Origin: an uncultured bacterium
Lineage (GTDB): Bacteria; Cyanobacteriota; Vampirovibrionia; Gastranaerophilales; Gastranaerophilaceae
NCBI GenBank assembly: GCA_949284985.1
Contig: CASDWY010000028.1
Coordinates: forward strand, 1-50,605
Length of the DNA: 50,605 nt
Reading direction: 5' to 3'
This document shows positions 8,852 through 45,924 of this stretch, in pieces. Both the position numbers and the translations under genes were made by a program. Position 1 is the stretch's first letter. Each line of letters opens with the position of its first letter. The notes beneath the pieces are model-generated. The model had not been told where the DNA came from. It did not search any database and saw nothing but the letters and a program-made list of their open reading frames with translations.

Positions 8852-9598
8852 ATGTCAGGACACTCAAAATGGTCAACAATAAAACGTAAAAAAGCGAAAG
8901 TGGATTCAGCAAGAGCTGCAGAGTTTCAAAAGTTTTCGCGAGAATTGATGGTTGCATCAAAACTTGGTGGACCAGATCCGGCAGCAAATTTTAGACTAAA
9001 AACAGCTATTGATAGAGCAAAAGCCGCAGGTTTGCCAGCTGATAATATTAAGCGTGCTATTGAAAAAGGTTCAGGAGCTTCTAATCAAGATAATTATGAA
9101 GAACTTACTTATGAAGGATATGGTCCTGGTGGAGTTGCAATTTTTATTGAAGCCATGACGGATAATAGAAATCGTACTGCCGGAGATATTCGTAGTTATT
9201 TTACAAAATTCGGCGGAAATCTCGGTGAAACGGGTTGTGTAGGTTGGATGTTCAAACCTGTAGGGTTGATAACTTTTGATAAATCTGTTGATTACGAAAA
9301 ACTTTTTGAAGCTGCTATAACTTTAGGGGCAGATGATATTGAAGAAGATGAAGATGAAACAAGAATTATAACTTCTGTAGAAAATTTTCAAGCTGTTGTT
9401 GAAGGCTTAGAAAAAGAAGGTTTTGCCTCTATTGGCGCTGATTTAACTCGTTTGCCCGAAAATGATCTTGAAATTACGGATGAGTCTGTAGCTACTAAAA
9501 TACTTAGACTTTTAGAAAAATTGGAAGAACACGATGATGTTCAAAATGTTTATTCAAATGTTGATATTGATGAAGATTTGGCAGAAAAAATAGGCTAA
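8852..9598 (+). CDS. yebC: YebC/PmpR family regulator
   Basis: A 248-aa protein with the invariant family start SGHSKWSTIKRKKAKVDSA and the typical order RAKAAGLPADNIKRAIEKG, YEGYGPGGVA, NRTAGDIRSYFTKFGG. YebC proteins bind DNA, and some act on ribosomes stalled at proline motifs; which role holds here is not visible. Length is standard. AAGGA precedes the ATG and a hairpin terminator follows. Confidence 0.95.
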   Translation: MSGHSKWSTIKRKKAKVDSARAAEFQKFSRELMVASKLGGPDPAANFRLKTAIDRAKAAGLPADNIKRAIEKGSGASNQDNYEELTYEGYGPGGVAIFIEAMTDNRNRTAGDIRSYFTKFGGNLGETGCVGWMFKPVGLITFDKSVDYEKLFEAAITLGADDIEEDEDETRIITSVENFQAVVEGLEKEGFASIGADLTRLPENDLEITDESVATKILRLLEKLEEHDDVQNVYSNVDIDEDLAEKIG

Positions 9599-9633
9599 AT
9601 TTTATTGTATTTTATGTTGATAATTTTTTGAAG

Positions 9634-9668
9634 TTAATCCTGCATTGCTTTGCAACGTAGGATTAAAT
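9634..9668 (+). terminator. Terminator after yebC
   Basis: TTAATCCT (9634-9641) pairs with AGGATTAA (9659-9666), with an inner TTGC/GCAA helix and a following ATTTTGTTTT run. Confidence 0.75.
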
Positions 9669-9770
9669 TTTGTTTTGGTGAATTTTTGTAGATTTTAATC
9701 CTTATGGTTATAGTAATGCGTTTTTTTTTTTTAAATTATTTGAATTGTTTTAATATTTAATTTTGAGTAA

Positions 9771-9815
9771 TTTGTAAATTTATGTAAAAAAACCAAAACC
9801 CTTTGAAAATATAAT
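9771..9815 (+). promoter_or_regulatory. HLR1-type RpaB site (9771-9788) and -10 TATAAT (9810-9815)
   Basis: On the minus strand 9788-9771 reads TTTACATAAATTTACAAA. This fits every position of the cyanobacterial HLR1 consensus: (G/T)TTACA, two A/T, two free bases, (G/T)TTACA, two A/T. A perfect TATAAT follows at 9810-9815, and no good -35 is seen at 17 bp. With transcription from about 9822 the site lies around -51 to -34, where RpaB acts as an activator in Cyanobacteria. The RpaB gene is in this window. Confidence 0.6.
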
Positions 9816-9863
9816 TTATATTTATTTTTTATATATTAGTGATAGTTTTATGAGGTGAACAGC

Positions 9864-10040
9864 ATGGGTGTTATGTCTAGACGAATGGTAAGAGATATGA
9901 TAGAAGAAAGAAGTCTTTTAATTCAAGATAGTTTAGATGAAATTAGTAATAATATATTATTGCAGCAGCGAGACGAAGATCTAATATCTACAATGTCTGT
10001 TCTTGAGTTTGATGAGTTGGTATATAAGCAGCTTGTTTAA
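9864..10040 (+). CDS. Small acidic helical protein, function unknown
   Basis: A 58-aa protein that I do not recognise. It starts with a short basic segment (MSRRMVRDMI) and then reads as one acidic amphipathic helix (ERSLLIQDSLDEISNN, LEFDELVYKQL), with no Cys, signal peptide or membrane span. AGGTG sits six bases before the ATG at 9864; a GTG at 9855 in the same frame overlaps that site and is less likely. The coding call rests on the good ribosome binding site, the clear -10 and the perfect HLR1 element upstream. It could be a small regulator or adaptor under RpaB control. It ends ten bases before the convergent holB gene. Confidence 0.7.
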   Translation: MGVMSRRMVRDMIEERSLLIQDSLDEISNNILLQQRDEDLISTMSVLEFDELVYKQLV

Positions 10041-10050
10041 TCTCTCAAAG

Positions 10051-11022
10051 TTAAGTCCAGTTTTTATAAATAGAAAACAAAGCATTTTCAAGTGCAGCTT
10101 GCGGTTTTATGTAAGACTTAAGCTGCATTTGAGCTTTATTAAGTGTATTTATGTCATCAAGCATTTTTGCAACATAAGTTGGATTATCTGTGTTATTTAG
10201 AGCTGTTTTTTTTATAAATTGTTGAAATTTTGTAAAAAGTTCTTCCGGCTCTAAGTTAAGGGTATCTGATTGGTTAATTAGTGTGGTGGCAATATCGCCA
10301 ATTTCAAAAGGGTTTATTTCCGGATAGAATTTTAGCGTATCAAAAATTATTGTTAAATCATTGTCTTGCATATATTTTGATGGCACATAGAAGCATTGAG
10401 ACCGAGAAATAATTGTTTCAATAAGATCTGTTTTATCTTTAGTTAGAAAAATGAAACTTGTTCTTGGTGGAGGTTCTTCAATTACTTTTAAAAGTGAATT
10501 TGCACTTTCTTCTTGAAAAACTTTTTGATTAAGTCCTTTGGGAATCCAAAATTTATTGTGTTCTTCGTCTTCGTACGGAAACGAAAAGTTGTTAGATTTA
10601 AGGATTGATATTTTTTCTTTTTCGTTTTTGTTTGGTGTTTTTATATCTGCATCGCAAATTATAAAAATACGATGATATTCACTTGTTGTAGCGAGAAGAT
10701 TTTTTAGAGCAAGAGTTTGTTTGACGGAGATAACTGTTTTTGAGTTGTCATTATCTGGTTTAAAATCTAATTTTGATACGGTTATTACAGCTGGGTGGCT
10801 GTTTGTTGTTATCCAGTTACAGTTAATACAATTACAGTTAAATTCGCTGGTATTTTGGCAGTTAAGTATTTTCCCAAAGTTTAAAGCGAGCAGGTATTGT
10901 GCAAAGATATCTTCTCCATAGAGGATTATTGATTGAGGAAATGTTGATTTGTTATTGTTTAACAAAAGTGAAAAATAGTCGTTTATAAATTTTAAATTGT
11001 TTTTTATGAATGGTGCAAACAT
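10051..11022 (-). CDS. holB: DNA polymerase III delta' subunit (clamp loader)
   Basis: A 323-aa AAA+ clamp-loader protein. Family marks are FPQSIILYGEDIFAQYLLAL (a degenerate P-loop, as in ATP-inactive delta'), a zinc-binding cysteine cluster (CNCINCNW) and SANSLLKVIEEPPPRTSFIF with the following sensor-like SRSQCF. It is a rigid subunit of the loader that places the beta clamp on DNA. Its ATG shares a base with the holA stop (TAATG), so translation is coupled. It is the last gene of glcK-holA-holB. The chain is AT-biased, with long Lys/Asn stretches, but no disruption was seen. Confidence 0.9.
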   Translation of the reverse strand: MFAPFIKNNLKFINDYFSLLLNNNKSTFPQSIILYGEDIFAQYLLALNFGKILNCQNTSEFNCNCINCNWITTNSHPAVITVSKLDFKPDNDNSKTVISVKQTLALKNLLATTSEYHRIFIICDADIKTPNKNEKEKISILKSNNFSFPYEDEEHNKFWIPKGLNQKVFQEESANSLLKVIEEPPPRTSFIFLTKDKTDLIETIISRSQCFYVPSKYMQDNDLTIIFDTLKFYPEINPFEIGDIATTLINQSDTLNLEPEELFTKFQQFIKKTALNNTDNPTYVAKMLDDINTLNKAQMQLKSYIKPQAALENALFSIYKNWT

Positions 11023-13786: not shown

Positions 13787-16700
13787 TTAGCTGGCAATAC
13801 TGTTAATAAGACTTAGGAATACAGAGGCTTGGTTTTGCATAAGTTGAGTTTGGAGAAGTTGTGCCGCTTGTATTTTTGATGCTTGGGTTAAGAGATTATT
13901 GTATTCTGCTGCAATATCAGCATCAATTAATGTAGATTGAGAATTTGATAGGTTAGTAAGACGCGTTAAATTTGTTTCCATAATAGAATTTAGCATGTTT
14001 TTTTGGAATCCAATGTCGACTCGTGAACTGGTTAAATTTAACATTATTGCATCAATTTTATCTAATGCTTCAAGAGCACTTTCTCTAGTGCTTACATCTA
14101 TTGTTATATCAGGAAGAACTAGTCCTGTTGAAATATTAAATGTGGAGTTATTTGAAAGATTACCATCTATTTGAATGTTAAAACTTGAATTTTTATCAAC
14201 GAGTTCATTCATTTGAGAGTACGTTGTATCCGTACCATTGTTTGATATTTTGTCATAGCCAGTGCCACCACTTATGGTATTGTTTTTGCCTGATATCACT
14301 GCAACGTAGTCATCATCTGAACCTCCTTTAACAACATTTTGGTCTCCGGAGATGTAAATGCTATCATCACCTGCTTCACCGTAAACTTCAGCATGGTTGG
14401 CGTTTATAGTGATTTTATCATCACCGTTCCCGCCATAAATATGTGCGCCATTAACAATATGATTGCTTGTTATATTATCGTTACCTTCACCACCGTTGAT
14501 AGATACTCCACCACCGGTATTTATAATAGTATCATTACCGTCTTCGCCGTTAATAGTAACGTCATCGGTATAATTATATATTTTATCATTGCCGGCTCCG
14601 CCATGAATGTCATGGAAAACAAAGTCATTGTTTATTATTGTATCTTCATCATCTTCACCATATAAAGCACTGGCATTGCCATTGTTTGTAATAATATCAT
14701 TGCCGGCTCCGCCATGAATTTCAATATAGTTGTTTTCAAAGTCATTGTTGTTTATGATTGTATCATTGCCATCGCCAGTCCAGATACCAATACTGGAGAG
14801 CATAGTGTTGCCAATGGTAACCTTATCATTCATGTCCCCTGTATATATGTTTATCTGCATGCCTTCAATAATAATATTGTCTTCTTGACCATCTGCTGCG
14901 GTAATTGTGACGTTTGTACCTGTAAAGGTTATTTCTCCGGTGTCTTTATTTAAAGACCATGATAATTGAGGTTGAGAAGATTCACCGGTGTTGTATGTTG
15001 AGGTAATAGTATATTTTTTACCGTCAATATCAATTGTACTTGAGTCTCCTTTGTTTATTGTTATAGAACCTTCTGTTGGAGAACCAAAATTTGTTGTAGT
15101 ATTAGAAGAATTTCCGCTGTTATCAATAAGTGTGTTTGAGCCTGCGCCACCGTCAATAGTGTTATAGCATGAACCACTAGTAATAGTTACGGTATCGTTT
15201 CCTGCTTCTGTATTTATGGCGCTACGCCACGAATTGCTTATGGTAATAGTATCATCTCCGTCACCAGTATTCAGACTTCCTTTATAGTTGTCCCATATAA
15301 CAGTATCGTTTAGGTCGCCTGTGTTTACATTGTTCCATAATCCATTCACAATAATATTATCTTCTTGACCGCTTGCAGCTGTTATTGTGAAATAGTCTCC
15401 ATCAAAAGTAATTTGACCGTTATCGTCTATTGTCCAAGTGAGAGTGTTTGAAGATGATGTGTTATTTACAACAGTATAAGATTTATCTCCGATTTGGATT
15501 TGTTTAGTTTCGTCTTGAGTAAAGTTTATTATTTGTCCGTCAGGGTAATTTGTTGCGTTAATAATAATATTGGGCTCATTACTGTTATCAGTTACAGAGT
15601 TTATTCCCTCTCCACCGTCGATAGTGTTGTAGAATGAGCCATTTTCAAGGGTTACAGAGTCATTTCCGTCTCCTGTATTAAGAGAGCCTTGGTATCCGTT
15701 CCAGATAACGGTATCATCCATATCGCCAGTGTTTATTATATTATAATTTCCATCAACAATAATATTATCTTCTTGTCCGCTTGCAGCTGTTATTGAGAAA
15801 TTTCCACCATCAAAAGTAATTTGACCGTTATCGTCTATTGTCCAAGTGAGAGTGTTTGAACTACTCCTATTATTACTAACAGTATAAGATTTGTCTCCGA
15901 TTTGAATTTGTTGAGATTCGTTAGCGTCAAATGAGTATGTTCCGTTGGCACTGTTTAGCGGAAGTTCAAAGTTTGTTATAGTGTTTGTGTATCCACTGTT
16001 GTTGATAAGAGTATCTTTTCCAATACCACCGTCGATGGTGTTGTCGAATGTGTTATTTTCGATGGTTACCGTATCATTACCAGTACCAGTGTTAATATTG
16101 TTGTTGTGTGAGCCATTAGCAAGAATTACCGTATCGTTTAGGTCACCTGTGTTTACAGTGTTCCATGAGCCTTTGACAATAATATTATCTTCTTGGTTAT
16201 CAGCAGCAGTAATTGTAAAAAAATCGCCATTAAATGTAATTTGACCGTTATCATCTATTGACCAAGTTAGAGTCTTTGAATAAGATGATTTATTAGTAAC
16301 AGTATAATATTTATCTCCGATTTGGATTTGTTGTGTTTCATTATTATTGAGAGTTATACCATTAGGGTAATTTGTTGCGTTTATAATAGTATTGGAGGAA
16401 TTACTGCTATCAGTTACGGTGTTTGTACCGGTACCACCGTCGATAGTGTTGTCGAATGCGTTATTTTCGATGGTTACCGTATCATTCCCAGTACCAGTGT
16501 TAATATTGTTGTTGTGTGAGCCATTAGCAAGAACTACGGTATCGTTTTGGTCGCTTGTGTTTAGCGTTATGTGGTACCCATTAACAATAATATTATCTTC
16601 TTGACCGCTTGCAGCTGTTATTGAGAAATGTCCACCATCAAAAGTAATTTGACCATTTTCATCTGTTGACCAAGTGAGAGTGTTTGAATATGAGGCTTTA

Positions 16701-19700
16701 TTAGTAACAGTATAAGATTTGTCTCCGATTTGAATTTGTTGAGATTCACCTGTGCCGAATTCATAAGATCCGTTTGCGCCACTCAGCGGAAGCTCGAAGT
16801 TTGTAATGGTGTTTGTTGAATCATTGCTGTTGTCAATAAGAGTGTCGTTACCTGCGCCGCCGTCTACTTTAGCGTATCGGATACCAGAATTGAGTGTAAC
16901 GGTGTCATTTCCATCGCCGGTATTAAGAGTTACTCTTGTGTTATTTACAACAATATTATCGTCGCCATCACCGGTATTAAGCGTGATAAAGCGTCCGTTA
17001 ACAACAATGTTGTCATTTTGACCGCTCGCAGCGGTTATTTCATAATCTTCACCCTCAAAGGTAATTTGACCGTTTTCGTCAACAGTCCAGGATAAAGGAT
17101 GAAGAGAATCATAAAGCTTTTTGACAGTATAGGTTTTGTCACCTATTTGGATTTCTTGTGTTTCATCTTTTTTAAGATATATCCCGGTTGGATGTCCATC
17201 AAAGTTTATGATATAATTAGAGTTTGCTGGAGTTATAAAATTGATTATAGTGTTGTGTCCTGTTCCGCCATCAACTACGTTGTTTTGCGAGTAGTAGTCC
17301 ATTTCAACATTGTCATCACCGTCTCCGAGGCGAACAATGTTATCACGTCCAGATATATAAACATTGTCATTTTGTCCATCAGCAGCTGTAATTTCAACCC
17401 AACTAGCATTTATTCTGATTTGGCCGTCTGGTTGAATTTCCCAAGAAACAGTTTTAGAGGAAGCTGACGGATTTGTGAATGTATAAGTTTTGTCACCGAT
17501 TTGAATTTGTTGTGACTGATTTTCGGTTAAGGTTATTTCGCCTACGTTTTCAAAATTAGTTACGGTGTTATTGCCTGTATTTAGAACCATATCATTGCCG
17601 TCACCACCATCAACAATGTTGTTCATTCCAAAAGACATATTGTTTAAATTAACAATATCATCACCATCGCCAGTGTTGATTTTGTTGTCAGAACCTTTGA
17701 TTGATAGGTTATCTTCTTGTCCATTAGCGGCAGTAATGGTGAAGTCGCTACCCATAAAAGTAATTTGACCGTTTTCGTTAGTTGACCAGGTGAGCGTGTT
17801 TAAAGGCCGAGCATAATCTTTGTGCTCATAAGTAACTGTGTATGTCTTGTCCCCAATTTGGATTGTTGCAGTTTCTCCTTGTGCTAGTGTTAGTCCATCA
17901 TTGTAGTTGGTTGCATTAACAATGCGATTGGCATAAGTATTGGGTACGACTGTATTAGTGCCTGTTCCACCGTCTATGATGTTAGAGGATGCGTTATTTG
18001 CCAGTGTAATAGTGTCATTTCCATCACCGGCGTCGAGGGTGTTGTTGTTGCCGTTAATTTTGATATTGTCATCTTGTCCGCTGGTAGCTCGGATTGCGAA
18101 ATCGCTACCTGAAAAAGTTATTTGACCGTTATCGTCTATTGTCCAAGTGAGAGTGTTTGAAGATGATGTGTTATTTACAACAGTATAAGATTTGTCTCCG
18201 ATTTGAATTTGTTGAGATTCGTTAGCGTCAAAGGAGTATGTTCCGTTGGCACTGTTTAGCGGAAGTTCAAAGTTTGTTATAGTGTTTGTGTATCCACTGT
18301 TGTTGATAAGAGTATCTTTTCCAATACCACCGTCGATAGTGTTACTGTGTGAGCCATTAGCAAGAACTACGGTATCGTTAAGGTCTCCTGTGTTTATTAT
18401 ATTATAATTTCCATCAACAATAATATTATCTTCTTGACCGCTTGCAGCTGTTATTGAGAAATCTCCACCATCAAAAGTAATTTGACCATTTTCATCTGTT
18501 GACCAAGTGAGAGTATTTGAATAGGAGGCTTTATTAGTAACAGTATAATATTTATCTCCAATTTGGATTAGTTGAGTTTCATTTTTACCAAGAGTTATAC
18601 CATCAGGATAATCTGTAGCATTAAAAATAGTATTTGAACTGCTGCTATTGTTTGTTACAGTATTAGTTCCGGTTCCACCGTCGATGGTGTTATTGTATGA
18701 GCTGCTAGCAATAGTTACAGTATCGTCTTGGTCACCTGTGTTTACATTGTTCCATGAGCCATTAACAATAACATTATCTTCTTGACCGCTTGCAGCTGTT
18801 ATTGAGAAATCTCCACCATCAAAAGTAATTTGACCATTTTCATCTGTTGACCAAGTGAGAGTGTTTGATTCGCCATAAGTGTAATTATTAGTAACAGTAT
18901 AAGATTTGTCTCCGATTTGAATTTGTTTAGTTTCGTTTTTGGTAAAAGAAAGGGTATTTGCGTTTTCAACATTATTGACTTTGTTATTCTTACCGTAATT
19001 AATTAATGTATCAGTACCGTCTCCACCGTAGATAGTGTTGTTGGAAGAGTTACTAGCAATAGTTACGGTATCATCCATATCGCCAGTGTTTATTATATTA
19101 TTATATCCATCAACAACAATATTATCTTCTTGCCCAGCAGCTGCGTTAATTGTGAAAGAGTTGCCATCAAAAGTAATTTGACCATTTTCATCTGTTGACC
19201 AAGTGAGAGTGTTTGAACTACTCCTATTATTACTAACAGTATAAGCTTTGTCTCCGATTTGAATTTGTTGAGATTCGTTAGCGTCAAAGGAGTATGTTCC
19301 GTTGGCACTGTTTAGCGGAAGTTCAAAGTTTGTTATGGTATTAGAAGAATTACCGCTGTTATTAATAAGAGTATCCTTGCCTGTACCGCCGTCTATGGTG
19401 TTATTGTATGAGCTGCTAGCAATAGTTACAGTATCGTTTCCGTCTCCTGTATTAATATATCCGTGATATCCGTTTAATATAACAGTGTCGCTCATGTCAC
19501 CTGTGTTTATTATATTATTATATCCATCAACAACAATATTATCTTCTTGGTTATCAGCAGCAGTAATTGTAAAAAAATCGCCATTAAATGTAATTTGACC
19601 GTTATCATCTATTGACCAAGTGAGAGTATTTGAAGATGATGTGTTATTTACAACAGTATAAGATTTATCTCCGATTTGGATTTGTTTAGTTTCGTTTTGA

Positions 19701-22700
19701 GTAAAGTTTATTACGTCACCGTTAGGATAATTTGTTGCGTTTATAATAATATTATTATTAGCATTGCTATTGTTATTAACAGTGTTGGTACCTGCTCCAC
19801 CGTCAATAGTGTTGTAGGATGAGCCACCAGCAAGAGTTATGGTATCGTTTCCGTCTCCCACGTCAATAGTGTTGTGGGATGAGCCGCTAGCAAGAGTTAC
19901 CGTATCGTTTTGGTCGCTTGTGTTTAGCGTTATCTTGTGCCCATTAACAATAATATTATCTTCTTGCCCAGCAGTTGCGGCAATTGTGAAATCGTTGCCA
20001 TCAAAAGTAATTTGACCGTTTTCATCTGTTGACCAAGTGAGAGTGTTTGATTCGCCATAAGTGTAATTATTAGTAACAGTATAATACTTGTCTCCAATTT
20101 GGATTTGTTTTGTTTCGTTTTGAGTAAATGAAATGGTATTTGCGTTTTCAACATTATTGACTTTGTTATTCTTACCGTAATTAATTAATGTATCAGTACC
20201 GTCTCCACCGTAGATAGTGTTGTTGGAAGAGTTACTAGCAAGAGTTATGGTATCGTTTCCGTCTCCCACGTCAATAGTGTTGTAGGATGAGCCGCTAGCA
20301 AGAGTTACCGTATCGTTTTGGTCACCTGTGTTTACATTGTTACTTGAGCCATTAACAATAATATTATCTTCTTGACCGCTTGCAGCTGTTATTGAGAAAT
20401 TTCCACCATCAAAAGTAATTTGACCGCTATCATCTGTTGACCAAGTAAGAGTGTTTGAATTATCCCAGGAATTATTGTTTGTAACGGTATAATACTTATC
20501 TCCGATTTGGATTTGTTTAGTTTCGTCTTGAGTAAAGTTTATTATTTGTCCGTCAGGGTAATTTGTTGCGTTAATAATAATATTAGAGTTACTACCGCTG
20601 TTATCAGTTACGGTGTTTGTACCCGCTCCTCCGTCGATAGTGTTGTAGGATGAGCTGCTAGCAATAGTTACAGTATCGTTTAGGTCACCTGTGTTTATTA
20701 TATTATTATATCCATCAACAACAATATTATCTTCTTGCCCAGCAGTTGCGGCAATTGTGAAATAGTTGCCATCAAAAGTAATTTGACCATTTTCATCTGT
20801 TGACCAAGTGAGAGTGTTTGAACTACTCCTATTATTACTAACAGTATAAGCTTTATCTCCGATTTGAATTTGTTGAGATTCGTTAGCGTCAAAGGAGTAT
20901 GTTCCGTTGGCACTGTTTAGCGGAAGTTCAAAGTTTGTTATAGTATTAGAAGAACTACTGCTGTTATTAATAAGAGTATCTTTTCCAGTACCACCGTCGA
21001 TGGTGTTATTGTATGAGCTGCTAGCAATAGTTACAGTATCGTTAAGGTCTCCTGTGTTGAGTGTATTATGACCACCATTAACAATAATATTATCTTCTTG
21101 ACCGCTTGCAGCTGTTATTGAGAAATATCCACCATCAAAAGTAATTTGACCGCTATCATCTATTGACCAAGTGAGAGTGTTTGATTCGCCATAAGTGTAA
21201 TTATTAGTAACAGTATAATACTTGTCTCCAATTTGGATTTGTTTTGTTTCGTTTTGGGTAAAGTTTATTACTTCACCGTCAGGGTAATTTGTTGCGTTAA
21301 TAATAATATTAGAGTTACTACCGCTGTTATCAGTTACGGTGTTTGTACCCGCTCCTCCGTCGATAGTATTGTAGGATGAGCCACTAGCAAGAGTTATGGT
21401 ATCATTTTGGTCACCTGTGTTAAGAGAGCCTTGGTATCCGTTCCAGATAACGGTATCATCCATATCGCCAGTGTTTATTATATTATAAATTCCATCAACA
21501 ATAATATTATCTTCTTGACCATCGGTTGCGGTGATTGTGAAATGTCCACCATCAAAAGTAATTTGACCGTTATCATCTGTTGACCAAGTAAGAGTGTTTG
21601 AATTATCCCAGGAATTATTGTTTGTAACGGTATAATACTTATCTCCGATTTGAATGGTTTTTGTTTCGTTTTGGGTAAAACTTTGAGAGCCTTCCAGAGA
21701 ATCTGTATTTGGACCAAAATTTGTTATAGTATTAGTAGAATTACCACTATTATCAATAAGAGTGTTTATACCTGTACCGCCATCAATAGTGTTATAGTAT
21801 GTATTATTAAGTATTACTGTGTCGTCACCTGCTCCTGCATATATTTCGTTGCCTCGGGTTGTGTCTTCATTGCTAGTATGAACTCTAATTGTATCATTGC
21901 CATCCCCACTGTTGATTACACCTCCAGATGAATTTACATCAATTGAGTCATCCATATCACCGGTGTTAAGTGTTCCGTAATCAACGCTCCAATCAATATT
22001 ATCAATCTGACCTTCAATTGCTGTTACATCGTAATTTGAACCATTAAAGAAGATTTGTCCGGTACTTGAGTTTGTGTCATAACTTATAGTTGCCCCTGTA
22101 GAGCCGTAGGTGGTTTTGTCAGTAATGGTATAGATTTTACCGTTAATCATAGCAGTAATAGTTTGCCCTACAGATAGCCCATAGCTACCAGAGGTTCCAA
22201 GATCAATATCATATTCTCCCGAGGAAGAACTTCCACCAGAAGAAGAACTTCCAAAATTTGTTATAGTATTAGTAGAATTACCACTATTATCAATAAGCGT
22301 GTTTATACCTGTACCGCCATCGATAGTATTCCTTCCTGTATCATTAAGTGTAACTGTATCGTCGCCACCCTCGGTGTATACGTTGTTATCTGAGGTTGTT
22401 ATTGTTACGTTATCGTTGCCATCACCGCTATAAATAGCGCCTGTAGTACTGAATACGGTAATCGTATCGTCCATGTCCCCTGTATACAGGGTACCGTTTG
22501 TAATATCCCATTTTATATTATCTGTTTGACCGCTTGCCGCAGTGACAGTGAACAAATCGCGTCTGTTTTGTTCAGATTCTGACAGCATATTGTTGTAACT
22601 TCTGCTCATTGTTATTTGACCTGTAGCAGAATCAGTTTCGTAGATAAAGTATTCAGTGTAATTTGAGTTGTTAGTGATGGTATAAATTTGGCCGTTGATC

Positions 22701-23521
22701 ATAGCCGTAATTGTTTGGCCGGAAGAAAGGCTGTAGCTTCCGGAGGTGCCAAGATCTACGTCATAGGAAGAACTATACGCAGCAGGAGCGGCCATGGATC
22801 TTGCCACCATCATCCTTGGCGCCATAGCGGGTGCCATTGCCGGTGCTGTAGGTTCTGTTGTTGAAGTGGTTTCTGTTGTGGTTACTTCTTCATCAGCACT
22901 TGACGCAGCTAACGTGTTTGTTTCGTCAGTTGTGGGTTCATTTGTTGTTGAAGTTTCAGATGAAGTTGTTGCAGGTCTGTCGCCAAGACGATTTAACGTC
23001 ATGCCTGCAGCGGTTGTTACTGTTTGAGGATCTCTGATGGCATACCTTGATTGACTGCTCGGGGGATCATTTGTGTACGTTGTGTTTTTGTCCAGAATAA
23101 TGGAGTTGGAGAAAAGCTTGTTGCCGTTGTATTCGGCACCCTCTTTTATTTGCTTGGCCTGTGCAAATAATTTGTTGATTTTCTCCTGGTTTGCCTCTCT
23201 TTCTGCGGGCGTCATGTACTCGTTTGTACTTTTTGAAACTAAATCTCTAATTTCTCCCATAATATTATTAATTTCATCAATAGAATCATCTGCAATACCA
23301 AGCAGGTTTATTGCAGTTTGAATATTATTGTTTGCGGTTTCCAAGCCTTTAATTTGTGTGGCTAAGTTGCTTGAAATATAAAATCCTGAGGGATTATCGG
23401 CTGGAGAGTTGATTTTTAGTCCTGTCATCATTCTTTGTAATGACGTAGTTAAGGACTGCATGCTCTTGAGTATGCTGTTTGATAGTTTTAAATTAAGAAC
23501 ATTATTATTAATAGAGATCAC
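13787..23521 (-). CDS. fliC: Giant flagellin (3244 aa) with RTX-like repeat insert
   Basis: Both ends are flagellin. Residues 1-150 match the D0/D1 N-terminus (INNNVLNLKLSNSI, SLQRMMTGLKINSPADNPSG, IQTAINLLGIADDSIDEI). The last 103 residues match the C-terminus (STLIDADIAAEYNNLLTQAS, ending QASVFLSLINS). Between them lie about 2,900 residues: a Thr/Glu-rich linker, a Met/Ala/Pro patch (APAMAPAMAPRMM), about 20 repeat units and a dense RTX-type stretch. Typical flagellins have 270-600 residues; giant flagellins are known elsewhere, but I know of none with this beta-roll array. Only one Cys was noticed. It should be exported by the flagellar system and expose the insert on the filament. The start is GTG; a weak AGGT lies upstream and is itself in an AGGT/ACCT inverted repeat. 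Control by CsrA/FliW is likely. Confidence 0.9.
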   Translation of the reverse strand: MISINNNVLNLKLSNSILKSMQSLTTSLQRMMTGLKINSPADNPSGFYISSNLATQIKGLETANNNIQTAINLLGIADDSIDEINNIMGEIRDLVSKSTNEYMTPAEREANQEKINKLFAQAKQIKEGAEYNGNKLFSNSIILDKNTTYTNDPPSSQSRYAIRDPQTVTTAAGMTLNRLGDRPATTSSETSTTNEPTTDETNTLAASSADEEVTTTETTSTTEPTAPAMAPAMAPRMMVARSMAAPAAYSSSYDVDLGTSGSYSLSSGQTITAMINGQIYTITNNSNYTEYFIYETDSATGQITMSRSYNNMLSESEQNRRDLFTVTAASGQTDNIKWDITNGTLYTGDMDDTITVFSTTGAIYSGDGNDNVTITTSDNNVYTEGGDDTVTLNDTGRNTIDGGTGINTLIDNSGNSTNTITNFGSSSSGGSSSSGEYDIDLGTSGSYGLSVGQTITAMINGKIYTITDKTTYGSTGATISYDTNSSTGQIFFNGSNYDVTAIEGQIDNIDWSVDYGTLNTGDMDDSIDVNSSGGVINSGDGNDTIRVHTSNEDTTRGNEIYAGAGDDTVILNNTYYNTIDGGTGINTLIDNSGNSTNTITNFGPNTDSLEGSQSFTQNETKTIQIGDKYYTVTNNNSWDNSNTLTWSTDDNGQITFDGGHFTITATDGQEDNIIVDGIYNIINTGDMDDTVIWNGYQGSLNTGDQNDTITLASGSSYNTIDGGAGTNTVTDNSGSNSNIIINATNYPDGEVINFTQNETKQIQIGDKYYTVTNNYTYGESNTLTWSIDDSGQITFDGGYFSITAASGQEDNIIVNGGHNTLNTGDLNDTVTIASSSYNNTIDGGTGKDTLINNSSSSSNTITNFELPLNSANGTYSFDANESQQIQIGDKAYTVSNNRSSSNTLTWSTDENGQITFDGNYFTIAATAGQEDNIVVDGYNNIINTGDLNDTVTIASSSSYNTIDGGAGTNTVTDNSGSNSNIIINATNYPDGQIINFTQDETKQIQIGDKYYTVTNNNSWDNSNTLTWSTDDSGQITFDGGNFSITAASGQEDNIIVNGSSNNVNTGDQNDTVTLASGSSYNTIDVGDGNDTITLASNSSNNTIYGGDGTDTLINYGKNNKVNNVENANTISFTQNETKQIQIGDKYYTVTNNYTYGESNTLTWSTDENGQITFDGNDFTIAATAGQEDNIIVNGHKITLNTSDQNDTVTLASGSSHNTIDVGDGNDTITLAGGSSYNTIDGGAGTNTVNNNSNANNNIIINATNYPNGDVINFTQNETKQIQIGDKSYTVVNNTSSSNTLTWSIDDNGQITFNGDFFTITAADNQEDNIVVDGYNNIINTGDMSDTVILNGYHGYINTGDGNDTVTIASSSYNNTIDGGTGKDTLINNSGNSSNTITNFELPLNSANGTYSFDANESQQIQIGDKAYTVSNNRSSSNTLTWSTDENGQITFDGNSFTINAAAGQEDNIVVDGYNNIINTGDMDDTVTIASNSSNNTIYGGDGTDTLINYGKNNKVNNVENANTLSFTKNETKQIQIGDKSYTVTNNYTYGESNTLTWSTDENGQITFDGGDFSITAASGQEDNVIVNGSWNNVNTGDQDDTVTIASSSYNNTIDGGTGTNTVTNNSSSSNTIFNATDYPDGITLGKNETQLIQIGDKYYTVTNKASYSNTLTWSTDENGQITFDGGDFSITAASGQEDNIIVDGNYNIINTGDLNDTVVLANGSHSNTIDGGIGKDTLINNSGYTNTITNFELPLNSANGTYSFDANESQQIQIGDKSYTVVNNTSSSNTLTWTIDDNGQITFSGSDFAIRATSGQDDNIKINGNNNTLDAGDGNDTITLANNASSNIIDGGTGTNTVVPNTYANRIVNATNYNDGLTLAQGETATIQIGDKTYTVTYEHKDYARPLNTLTWSTNENGQITFMGSDFTITAANGQEDNLSIKGSDNKINTGDGDDIVNLNNMSFGMNNIVDGGDGNDMVLNTGNNTVTNFENVGEITLTENQSQQIQIGDKTYTFTNPSASSKTVSWEIQPDGQIRINASWVEITAADGQNDNVYISGRDNIVRLGDGDDNVEMDYYSQNNVVDGGTGHNTIINFITPANSNYIINFDGHPTGIYLKKDETQEIQIGDKTYTVKKLYDSLHPLSWTVDENGQITFEGEDYEITAASGQNDNIVVNGRFITLNTGDGDDNIVVNNTRVTLNTGDGNDTVTLNSGIRYAKVDGGAGNDTLIDNSNDSTNTITNFELPLSGANGSYEFGTGESQQIQIGDKSYTVTNKASYSNTLTWSTDENGQITFDGGHFSITAASGQEDNIIVNGYHITLNTSDQNDTVVLANGSHNNNINTGTGNDTVTIENNAFDNTIDGGTGTNTVTDSSNSSNTIINATNYPNGITLNNNETQQIQIGDKYYTVTNKSSYSKTLTWSIDDNGQITFNGDFFTITAADNQEDNIIVKGSWNTVNTGDLNDTVILANGSHNNNINTGTGNDTVTIENNTFDNTIDGGIGKDTLINNSGYTNTITNFELPLNSANGTYSFDANESQQIQIGDKSYTVSNNRSSSNTLTWTIDDNGQITFDGGNFSITAASGQEDNIIVDGNYNIINTGDMDDTVIWNGYQGSLNTGDGNDSVTLENGSFYNTIDGGEGINSVTDNSNEPNIIINATNYPDGQIINFTQDETKQIQIGDKSYTVVNNTSSSNTLTWTIDDNGQITFDGDYFTITAASGQEDNIIVNGLWNNVNTGDLNDTVIWDNYKGSLNTGDGDDTITISNSWRSAINTEAGNDTVTITSGSCYNTIDGGAGSNTLIDNSGNSSNTTTNFGSPTEGSITINKGDSSTIDIDGKKYTITSTYNTGESSQPQLSWSLNKDTGEITFTGTNVTITAADGQEDNIIIEGMQINIYTGDMNDKVTIGNTMLSSIGIWTGDGNDTIINNNDFENNYIEIHGGAGNDIITNNGNASALYGEDDEDTIINNDFVFHDIHGGAGNDKIYNYTDDVTINGEDGNDTIINTGGGVSINGGEGNDNITSNHIVNGAHIYGGNGDDKITINANHAEVYGEAGDDSIYISGDQNVVKGGSDDDYVAVISGKNNTISGGTGYDKISNNGTDTTYSQMNELVDKNSSFNIQIDGNLSNNSTFNISTGLVLPDITIDVSTRESALEALDKIDAIMLNLTSSRVDIGFQKNMLNSIMETNLTRLTNLSNSQSTLIDADIAAEYNNLLTQASKIQAAQLLQTQLMQNQASVFLSLINSIAS
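14240..22770 (-). repeat. Coding beta-roll repeat array inside the flagellin
   Basis: About 20 protein units. Seventeen carry QIQIGDK(Y/S/A/T)YTV, then NTLTWSxDENGQITF, then TAAsGQEDNIIV, then NTGDxNDTVxLA and NTIDGGxGxNTV. Two N-terminal units use TITAMINGxIYTIT, and one C-terminal unit is divergent. About 14240-15080 encodes short GGxGNDxI repeats (IHGGAGNDIITN, INGEDGNDTIIN), the calcium-binding RTX nonapeptide pattern. Adjacent and distant units are nearly identical at DNA level. Confidence 0.92.
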
Positions 23522-23733: not shown

Positions 23734-23751
23734 TTTACAATTCGTTACATA
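23734..23751 (+). promoter_or_regulatory. HLR1-type RpaB site
   Basis: TTTACAATTCGTTACATA fits all defined positions of the HLR1 consensus. It lies 213 bases upstream of the giant flagellin start, and about 41-58 bases before a possible plus-strand start near 23792 (-10 TAAGAT at 23780-23785). Confidence 0.55.
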
Positions 23752-24123: not shown

Positions 24124-24516
24124 TTAGTTGCCTCCATAACTAAAGGCGGATTTTATTCCGGATTCAATCATTTTGTCTATACCTTCAGATTCTGTGTCAA
24201 GGGCTTTTTCTTGTGTTTCAAGTTGTTTTTTCTCGTTTGTGAGAAGTTTTTCTTTTGCATTATATTGTGCAGTAATATTATTATATAATGCAGTAAAATC
24301 CTCACTCGTCATAACATCAGCCGTTACCGAAGGTTCATCTGCGCCCTCTGCTGCAGCTACTTGTGCCTGAAATTGCGATAGTAAAGTCGTGGTTTCATTT
24401 GATACATTGTAGGCTAATCGTGCAAGTTGATCGGTTATTTGCATAAGCCGATATTCTATTTGCGCTTTTCTCATAATAATGAATAAACTGGTGCCTTGAG
24501 CTACTGCTAATGACAT
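24124..24516 (-). CDS. Coiled-coil protein, function unknown
   Basis: A 130-aa, almost wholly helical protein. It opens with SLAVAQGTSLFIIMRKAQIEYRL (mildly hydrophobic, without a classical signal peptide), has an Ala/Gly/Glu-rich middle, and ends in a long Lys/Glu coiled coil (NAKEKLLTNEKKQLETQEKA) with a GIKSAFSYGGN tail. This shape resembles small structural or export-dependent helical proteins, but I cannot place it in a family. AGAGAGAA precedes the ATG. Its position between the giant flagellin and deoC, with the 60-aa gene, makes a flagellar or surface role possible; this is inference from position only. Confidence 0.75.
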   Translation of the reverse strand: MSLAVAQGTSLFIIMRKAQIEYRLMQITDQLARLAYNVSNETTTLLSQFQAQVAAAEGADEPSVTADVMTSEDFTALYNNITAQYNAKEKLLTNEKKQLETQEKALDTESEGIDKMIESGIKSAFSYGGN

Positions 24517-28705: not shown

Positions 28706-28963
28706 TTACTGTCCGAAAGATTCGACAATAGAATTTTCTGTTGTTGTAATTTTGTTAAGCTTTTCAAGTGCTTTGGCTGTACTTTTGTTAGATTCTACAT
28801 TTGCCTCTTTTACTGCTGTGTAGATTTCTTCGCGATAAATTTTTACTCCAGCGGGTGCATTAATTCCAAGTTTTATATTGCCACAACCATTATCTAGAAT
28901 TGTAATTTCTATGTTATCGTTAATTATAAGTTTTTGACCTTGTTTCCTTGATAGTATTAGCAT
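28706..28963 (-). CDS. csrA: Carbon storage/flagellin translational regulator CsrA
   Basis: An 85-aa CsrA, a little longer than the common 60-75. The beta strand start MLILSRKQGQKLIIND and the RNA-contact segment APAGVKIYREEIY are intact; the C-terminal tail after about residue 60 is extended. CsrA dimers bind GGA in hairpin loops and block translation. In flagellate Firmicutes and Campylobacter, FliW titrates CsrA off flagellin mRNA. Here csrA starts inside the fliW stop (TAATG), giving tight coupling. The likely target is the hairpin at 23557-23587. Confidence 0.95.
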   Translation of the reverse strand: MLILSRKQGQKLIINDNIEITILDNGCGNIKLGINAPAGVKIYREEIYTAVKEANVESNKSTAKALEKLNKITTTENSIVESFGQ

Positions 28964-29400
28964 TATATTACTCCTTGTGGAAATAAGGGTTGTTTAACGA
29001 GGTTTGAGGAGCCGTTTAAGATAAGTTGGACTCCTGCTTTTGTTCTTTTATTTATAATTATTGGAGCCAAAAGATTTATTGTTGATTTTTGTGGTTTTCC
29101 TTTTGGAATATTAACTATGTTTATAGCCAGAACATCTTCAATTGATTTTAAATCCAGTAATTCAACTGTTTGATCATCAATTTCAAAATTATATTCAATT
29201 TTAAAATTTGAAGCTGTCGAAACAGGGAACGCAAGCTCAGGAAATTCTGTTGATTGAAGCCACCTAAAAATATTATTATTGTCATTTTCTATTAAAATAT
29301 ATTTTTTAGCATGTTCGAAACCAATTATTGGTGAAACAAAAGTGAATACAAGGCTTTCGTCTGCTTCTACCTCTCCAAATCTTGTTGTATTAATTTTCAT
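28963..29400 (-). CDS. fliW: Flagellar assembly factor FliW
   Basis: A 145-aa FliW. Family features are TTRFGEVEADESLVFTF at the start, the IIGFEHAKKYILIE segment, and the C-terminal strand INLLAPIIINKRTKAGVQLI. FliW binds CsrA as an antagonist and also binds newly made flagellin, so flagellin levels feed back on their own translation. It overlaps csrA by one base. The secreted TPR gene lies 27 bases upstream. No other flagellar structural gene except the flagellin is in the window. Confidence 0.93.
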   Translation of the reverse strand: MKINTTRFGEVEADESLVFTFVSPIIGFEHAKKYILIENDNNNIFRWLQSTEFPELAFPVSTASNFKIEYNFEIDDQTVELLDLKSIEDVLAINIVNIPKGKPQKSTINLLAPIIINKRTKAGVQLILNGSSNLVKQPLFPQGVI

Positions 29401-45171: not shown

Positions 45172-45924
45172 TTATGAAATTCTTTGGAACATATACCCAA
45201 TGCCACGAGCAGTTAAGATGAGTTCCGGGTTTGTCGGATCTTGTTCAAGTTTTGAACGCAGTCTTGAGATATGAACATCTACAACACGTGTGTCAATTCT
45301 ATGATCAGCAGGATAAGCCCAAACATGCTGCAAAATTTCGTTTCTTGAGTAAGCTTGACCTGAGTTATTAACTAATAATTCAAGTAAGCTAAACTCCATA
45401 CCCGTTAAGCGAATTCTTTCATTTTTTCTGAAAACTTGTCTTCTTGCAGTGTCAATTTTAATTTGTCCTGTAGTAATAACATTTTTAGCAACTTTTCCGC
45501 CAACAGGAGCTGCAACTTCACGACTAGAAGTTCTTCTTAATACTGCTTTAACGCGAGCTTCTAGTTCTTTAGGACTAAAAGGTTTAATTACATAATCATC
45601 AGCCCCAAGTTCAAGACCTGTGATTCTTTCTGAAACATCTCCAAGTGCAGTTAATATAATTATTGGAACGTCAGAATTACGTCTAATTTCTCTTGTAACG
45701 CCATATCCGTCAGTTTTTGGCATCATTACATCGAGAATCACTAAGTCAGGATTGTGTTTATTAAATTGGGCAATAGCTTCTTCGCCGTCAGCTGCTGTAA
45801 TAACATCGTAACCAATCATTTTAAGGCGAGTTTCAAGAATTCTTCTAATACTAGCTTCATCATCGGCTACAAGAATTTTTTGGCGTGATTCGAGTTGTTC
45901 TGCTGTGTCGGTGTTTGTTGTCAT
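45172..45924 (-). CDS. rpaB: OmpR-type response regulator, RpaB orthologue
   Basis: A 250-aa two-domain regulator. The receiver has ILVADDEASIRRILETRLKM, the phospho-acceptor Asp65 in ILDVMMPKTDGYG, and LELGADDYVIKPFSPKELEA. The winged-helix domain has ERIRLTGMEFSLLELLV and DTRVVDVHISRLRSKLEQDP. The whole chain reads like cyanobacterial RpaB (Ycf27), a regulator of photosynthesis and high-light genes that binds HLR1 sites. In an apparently non-photosynthetic genome its targets must differ; two perfect HLR1 matches in this window are candidates. The partner kinase (NblS/Hik33 in Cyanobacteria) is not in the window. It is a single gene with its own terminator, divergent from lpd. Confidence 0.9.
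   Translation of the reverse strand: MTTNTDTAEQLESRQKILVADDEASIRRILETRLKMIGYDVITAADGEEAIAQFNKHNPDLVILDVMMPKTDGYGVTREIRRNSDVPIIILTALGDVSERITGLELGADDYVIKPFSPKELEARVKAVLRRTSSREVAAPVGGKVAKNVITTGQIKIDTARRQVFRKNERIRLTGMEFSLLELLVNNSGQAYSRNEILQHVWAYPADHRIDTRVVDVHISRLRSKLEQDPTNPELILTARGIGYMFQRIS

Follow-up and report, generated by a model that had tools for sequence, protein, structure and literature searches.

The locus

The window analysed here is a stretch of 50,605 nucleotides from an uncultured bacterium of the Gastranaerophilales (contig CASDWY010000028.1 of the assembly GCA_949284985.1). Between yebC and a small open reading frame (ORF) on the same strand it carries a sequence that fits, at every defined position, the HLR1 consensus KTTACAWWNNKTTACAWW used in PMC11633204 and PMC13421787. 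The features relevant to this site are listed below; type B denotes a composite promoter class defined in the following section.

8852–9598, plus strand: yebC, upstream neighbour and synteny anchor, 85–90% identical in the congeners G001 and G002
9771–9788, minus strand: HLR1 site TTTACATAAATTTACAAA, an 18-mer perfectly matching the consensus, intergenic
9805–9810, plus strand: GAAAAT, predicted type-B upstream promoter element, starting 17 nt past the HLR1 end (register as in 59 of 78 type-B composites)
9810–9815, plus strand: TATAAT, probably not the -10 element used
9828–9835, plus strand: TTTATATA, type-B downstream element and likely -10 region, starting 40 nt past the HLR1 end (register as in 57 of 78 type-B composites)
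9852–9858, plus strand: GAGGTGA, ribosome-binding-like, read from the sequence
9864–10040, plus strand: P0001, an orphan ORF of 58 aa, acidic, with one helix (residues 6–57) and a weak coding signal
23734–23751, plus strand: second perfect HLR1 site, upstream of a flagellin-like giant gene (13787–23521, minus strand)
45172–45924, minus strand: rpaB, presumed cognate regulator

These two perfect HLR1 sites are the only ones in the window and both are intergenic, while 100 dinucleotide-preserving shuffles of the window contained on average 0.04 perfect sites and none of them reached two. The original prediction had described the full match at 9771–9788 and the two intergenic sites in the same way, and its estimate of about 0.02 chance matches per window is close to the shuffle value. 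At the level of sequence, 9771–9788 is thus confirmed as a genuine HLR1-class site. The second site is separated by about 213 nt from the GTG called as the start of the giant gene (Flagellin_N, 86.7 bits) and hence falls outside the usual distance of 60–99 nt. The product of this gene is a flagellin-like protein of 3244 aa, encoded near FliW (28963–29400, minus strand) and an 85-aa protein that resembles CsrA by eye (28706–28963, minus strand). A scan for intrinsic terminators over 9580–10120 reported none; an inverted repeat TTAATCC...GGATTAA followed by ATTTTGTTTT at 9634–9666, after yebC, looks by eye like a possible terminator and is absent from the output of the scan.

HLR1 enrichment and composite promoters in the clade

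The genome to which the window belongs contains 10 exact HLR1 sites versus 3 matches to the reversed pattern, a control that preserves composition but not dinucleotides, and its half-site pairs peak at the 10-bp period (16 pairs; no other spacing has more than 6). Across 59 related genomes, all of them assemblies, there are 925 exact HLR1 sites versus 114 control matches, an excess of about 8-fold. The sole genome from outside the order (G058) is uninformative, as it has neither HLR1 sites nor control matches. Examination of 96 HLR1 sites (loci from G025, G017, G023, G034, G046 and the own genome) placed 93 of them outside ORFs and 3 inside, against about 75% of bases lying within genes. Start codons 60–99 nt from the site were found in 53 of 85 cases in the opposite-strand orientation, and in 22 in the same-strand orientation. 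The sites follow a fixed grammar, in which HLR1 lies on the strand opposite to the gene, usually 60–99 nt upstream of the start codon, with the promoter at a fixed distance.

Two kinds of such composites can be distinguished. In type A, HLR1 is followed by a sigma-28-like promoter, with TAAAG at +18/+19 and GCCG downstream; among the HLR1-aligned loci, 11 of 13 such cases have AAAG starting at +19, and this is then followed by GYCG. In type B, a class defined here, GMAAW (G[AC]AAW) and TTTATA stand at +17 and +40, respectively, counted from the HLR1 end. Both types were first spotted by eye in part of the data later counted, and since the patterns had been noticed in the same data, they were recounted as whole composites across the 59 genomes, which yielded 107 matches for type A and 135 for type B versus 0 for the reversed control in either case. 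The shuffle expectation is 0.08 for type A and 0.15 for type B, versus 13 and 10 observed. The search pattern for type B permitted a range of positions beyond +17 and +40; nevertheless, of the 78 type-B composites in the fetched loci, 59 have GMAAW beginning at +17 and 57 have TTTATA beginning at +40.

The promoter consensus of sigma-28 (FliA) is TAAAGTTT-N11-GCCGATAA, and the type-A elements are similar to it. The own genome encodes a sigma factor of the FliA/WhiG type (TIGR02479, 238 bits, cut-off 189.6). Unlike ordinary sigma-28 promoters, type A is joined to an upstream HLR1 at a fixed distance. No strict type A was found in the own genome, and the site in the window is of type B.

The promoter behind the flagged site

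The site at 9771–9788 is one of 3 strict type-B matches in its genome and meets the class in exact register, with GMAAW at 9805 (+17) and TTTATA at 9828 (+40). The distance of 75 nt between the HLR1 end and the ATG of the 58-aa ORF likewise falls within the range of the class. The original prediction took the TATAAT at 9810–9815 as the -10 element, with HLR1 at -51/-34. This assignment was revised, because TATAAT-like hexamers show no positional peak at such a distance among the 96 HLR1 sites, and because the class layout points to the elements at 9805–9810 and 9828–9835 instead. With this register, the likely transcription start is about 9841 instead of about 9822, and HLR1 would lie at about -70/-53, near the range of about -66 to -45 that HLR1 occupies at activated genes of Cyanobacteria (PMC13421787). 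The activator-like upstream placement proposed originally appears supported, although in a different, predicted register. The candidate promoter also resembles the RpaB-bound atpT promoter, reported to lack a consensus -35 (PMC9241938), in having no consensus -35 of its own.

The regulator

RpaB is known as a master switch of photosynthesis genes. The protein encoded at 45172–45924 exceeds the equivalog cut-off of the NCBIfam model for RpaB (NF045944: 360.5 versus 330 bits), and its recognition helix DTRVVDVHISRLRSKL is identical in 16 of 16 residues to that of RpaB from the marine cyanobacteria Synechococcus and Prochlorococcus (L227, L228, L229, L233). Both results support its identification as a bona fide RpaB. 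Its closest records come from Candidatus Gastranaerophilales, in agreement with the original suggestion of a dark (non-photosynthetic) relative of Cyanobacteria. A Pfam search found three winged-helix regulators of the OmpR type in the genome, i.e. RpaB and two paralogues (C5:90392 and C29:164867), whose DNA-binding domains are 31–33% and helices 39% identical to those of RpaB and which score 211.6 and 216.5 bits on the RpaB model, below its cut-off. RpaB is found above the cut-off in 52 of the 59 related genomes. The remaining seven include G040, which is 99% complete and carries HLR1 and composite sites, and in G005 (93% complete) the situation is similar. Contig gaps may account for the missing RpaB in these two genomes.

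The gene behind the site and other targets

The 58-aa product was described originally as acidic and helical, which is borne out by its pI of 4.3 and by the single-sequence structure prediction, in which the modelled helix has a pLDDT of 93. It was also expected to be a conserved RpaB target, and here the result is negative: no homologue was found in the 59 relatives, in the scan of GTDB contigs, in Pfam or in NCBIfam, and 383 genomes of the family returned matches at chance level only. One weak match (G111:C29) was dropped, as it has no HLR1 nearby and sits in the opposite frame to a longer ORF. P0001 has a coding score of 0.08 per codon, which falls between the values of real genes (0.38 ± 0.13) and those of shadow ORFs (-0.06 ± 0.23). 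The product of the putative transcript would presumably be the 58-aa protein.

In both congeners the slot behind yebC (L046, 2484-; L047, 2562-) is occupied by a gene that replaces the 58-aa ORF; its product has 189 aa in one congener and 192 aa in the other, and the two proteins are 37% identical to each other. Their promoters show two half-sites at a 9-bp period, i.e. a degenerate HLR1, and GCAAT at +17, which indicates that the promoter class persists there although neither the gene nor the exact site is the same. The site at 9771–9788 is a true example of the promoter class with a non-conserved 58-aa gene behind it; what is conserved is the class itself and, within the genus, its position behind yebC, and not the gene that it drives.

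A conserved small HLR1 target does appear to exist in the form of a distinct family of proteins of about 55 aa (A1), with 18 members of 51–59 aa in 18 genomes, among them the own genome (L309) and the two congeners, all behind type-B composites. Members in the alignment (L309, L312, L314 and others) have no Pfam match. P0001 was considered as a divergent member and rejected, since its profile score of 2.4 bits is within the range of its own shuffles. Further targets include a 15-member cluster containing MGxxASQARLL-type proteins, and flagellin-like genes start near some of the HLR1 sites. No photosynthesis genes were found among the targets examined, which are flagellin-like or uncharacterised.

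Two further loci may be mentioned. A 130-aa protein (24124–24516, minus strand) resembles the MGxxASQARLL cluster by eye and has upstream a promoter-like stretch GCAAC...ACTTTATATATATA without a good HLR1. A sigma-70 family gene elsewhere in the genome (L158, G000:C29:81802) carries an exact HLR1 in its upstream region, about 270 nt before the called start; sigma factor genes are RpaB targets in Cyanobacteria too (PMC13421787).

Proposed function and alternative explanations

We consider it probable that 9771–9788 functions within a large RpaB/HLR1 regulon which the non-photosynthetic Gastranaerophilales have retained, with a promoter of type B and most likely with activation as the outcome. 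RpaB, encoded in the same window, would bind the two half-sites, which are spaced by 10 bp and immediately precede a promoter without a consensus -35, and would most likely recruit RNA polymerase. In this type of promoter HLR1 stands on the strand opposite to the gene, with the start codon usually following 60–99 nt past its end. That an intergenic stretch rich in AT matches the consensus merely by chance is very improbable. The genome is indeed AT-rich and has three exact control matches, but only 0.04 sites are expected per window, the composite in exact register has no control matches over 59 genomes, and a similar promoter occupies the syntenic spot in the congeners. A more serious alternative, still quite unlikely, is that the HLR1 sites belong to one of the two OmpR paralogues binding a similar direct repeat, with RpaB as a bystander. 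Three regulators of this type are available in the genome, and the sites in G040, where no RpaB was detected above the cut-off, count against RpaB as the assigned regulator. On the other hand, HLR1 is the characterised binding site of RpaB (PMC13421787, PMC9241938), and the helix that reads it in Cyanobacteria is present in RpaB only. We infer that RpaB rather than a paralogue is the binder of HLR1 here, and that its effect would be activation.

Somewhat less remote, though unlikely as well, is the possibility that RpaB binds but represses, or that the transcript is a small RNA and not the message of the 58-aa ORF. In Cyanobacteria an HLR1 overlapping the start site represses (PMC13421787), and the TATAAT at 9810–9815, if it were the -10, would bring the site to -51/-34; the register of type B, in contrast, puts it upstream of the promoter elements. 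A small RNA would agree with the orphan status and the weak coding signal of the ORF, but the ribosome-binding-like GAGGTGA and the distance from HLR1 to the ATG, which matches the class, argue for a message, and Rfam gave no match above the gathering score.

Relation to the cyanobacterial regulon

The proposed regulon of Gastranaerophilales shares with that of Cyanobacteria the 18-bp direct-repeat consensus, an RpaB orthologue whose recognition helix is identical, and a predicted upstream placement of HLR1 close to that at activated genes. It differs in its targets, none of those examined being photosynthetic, and in the fixed opposite-strand orientation and the fixed registers of the composites, of which we found no description in the parts of the cyanobacterial HLR1/RpaB literature consulted. 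The presence of RpaB in non-photosynthetic relatives was noted already in 2013, without known targets: homologues of RpaA, RpaB and NblS were reported in Melainabacteria with their function left open (PMC3787301, PMC5877343), and the portions of these reports consulted agree on the presence of the regulator and give neither a binding motif nor targets.

It is possible, albeit doubtful, that before the rise of oxygenic photosynthesis RpaB controlled proteins of the surface, of motility and of secreted type, that Cyanobacteria later redirected the HLR1 code, itself unchanged, to photosynthesis genes, and that the old role survives in Gastranaerophilales in the form of composite HLR1 promoters. 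If the regulon proposed here is real, the DNA code would be conserved while the functions under its control differ, and the role of RpaB outside photosynthesis would be directly testable with the purified protein and a few promoters.
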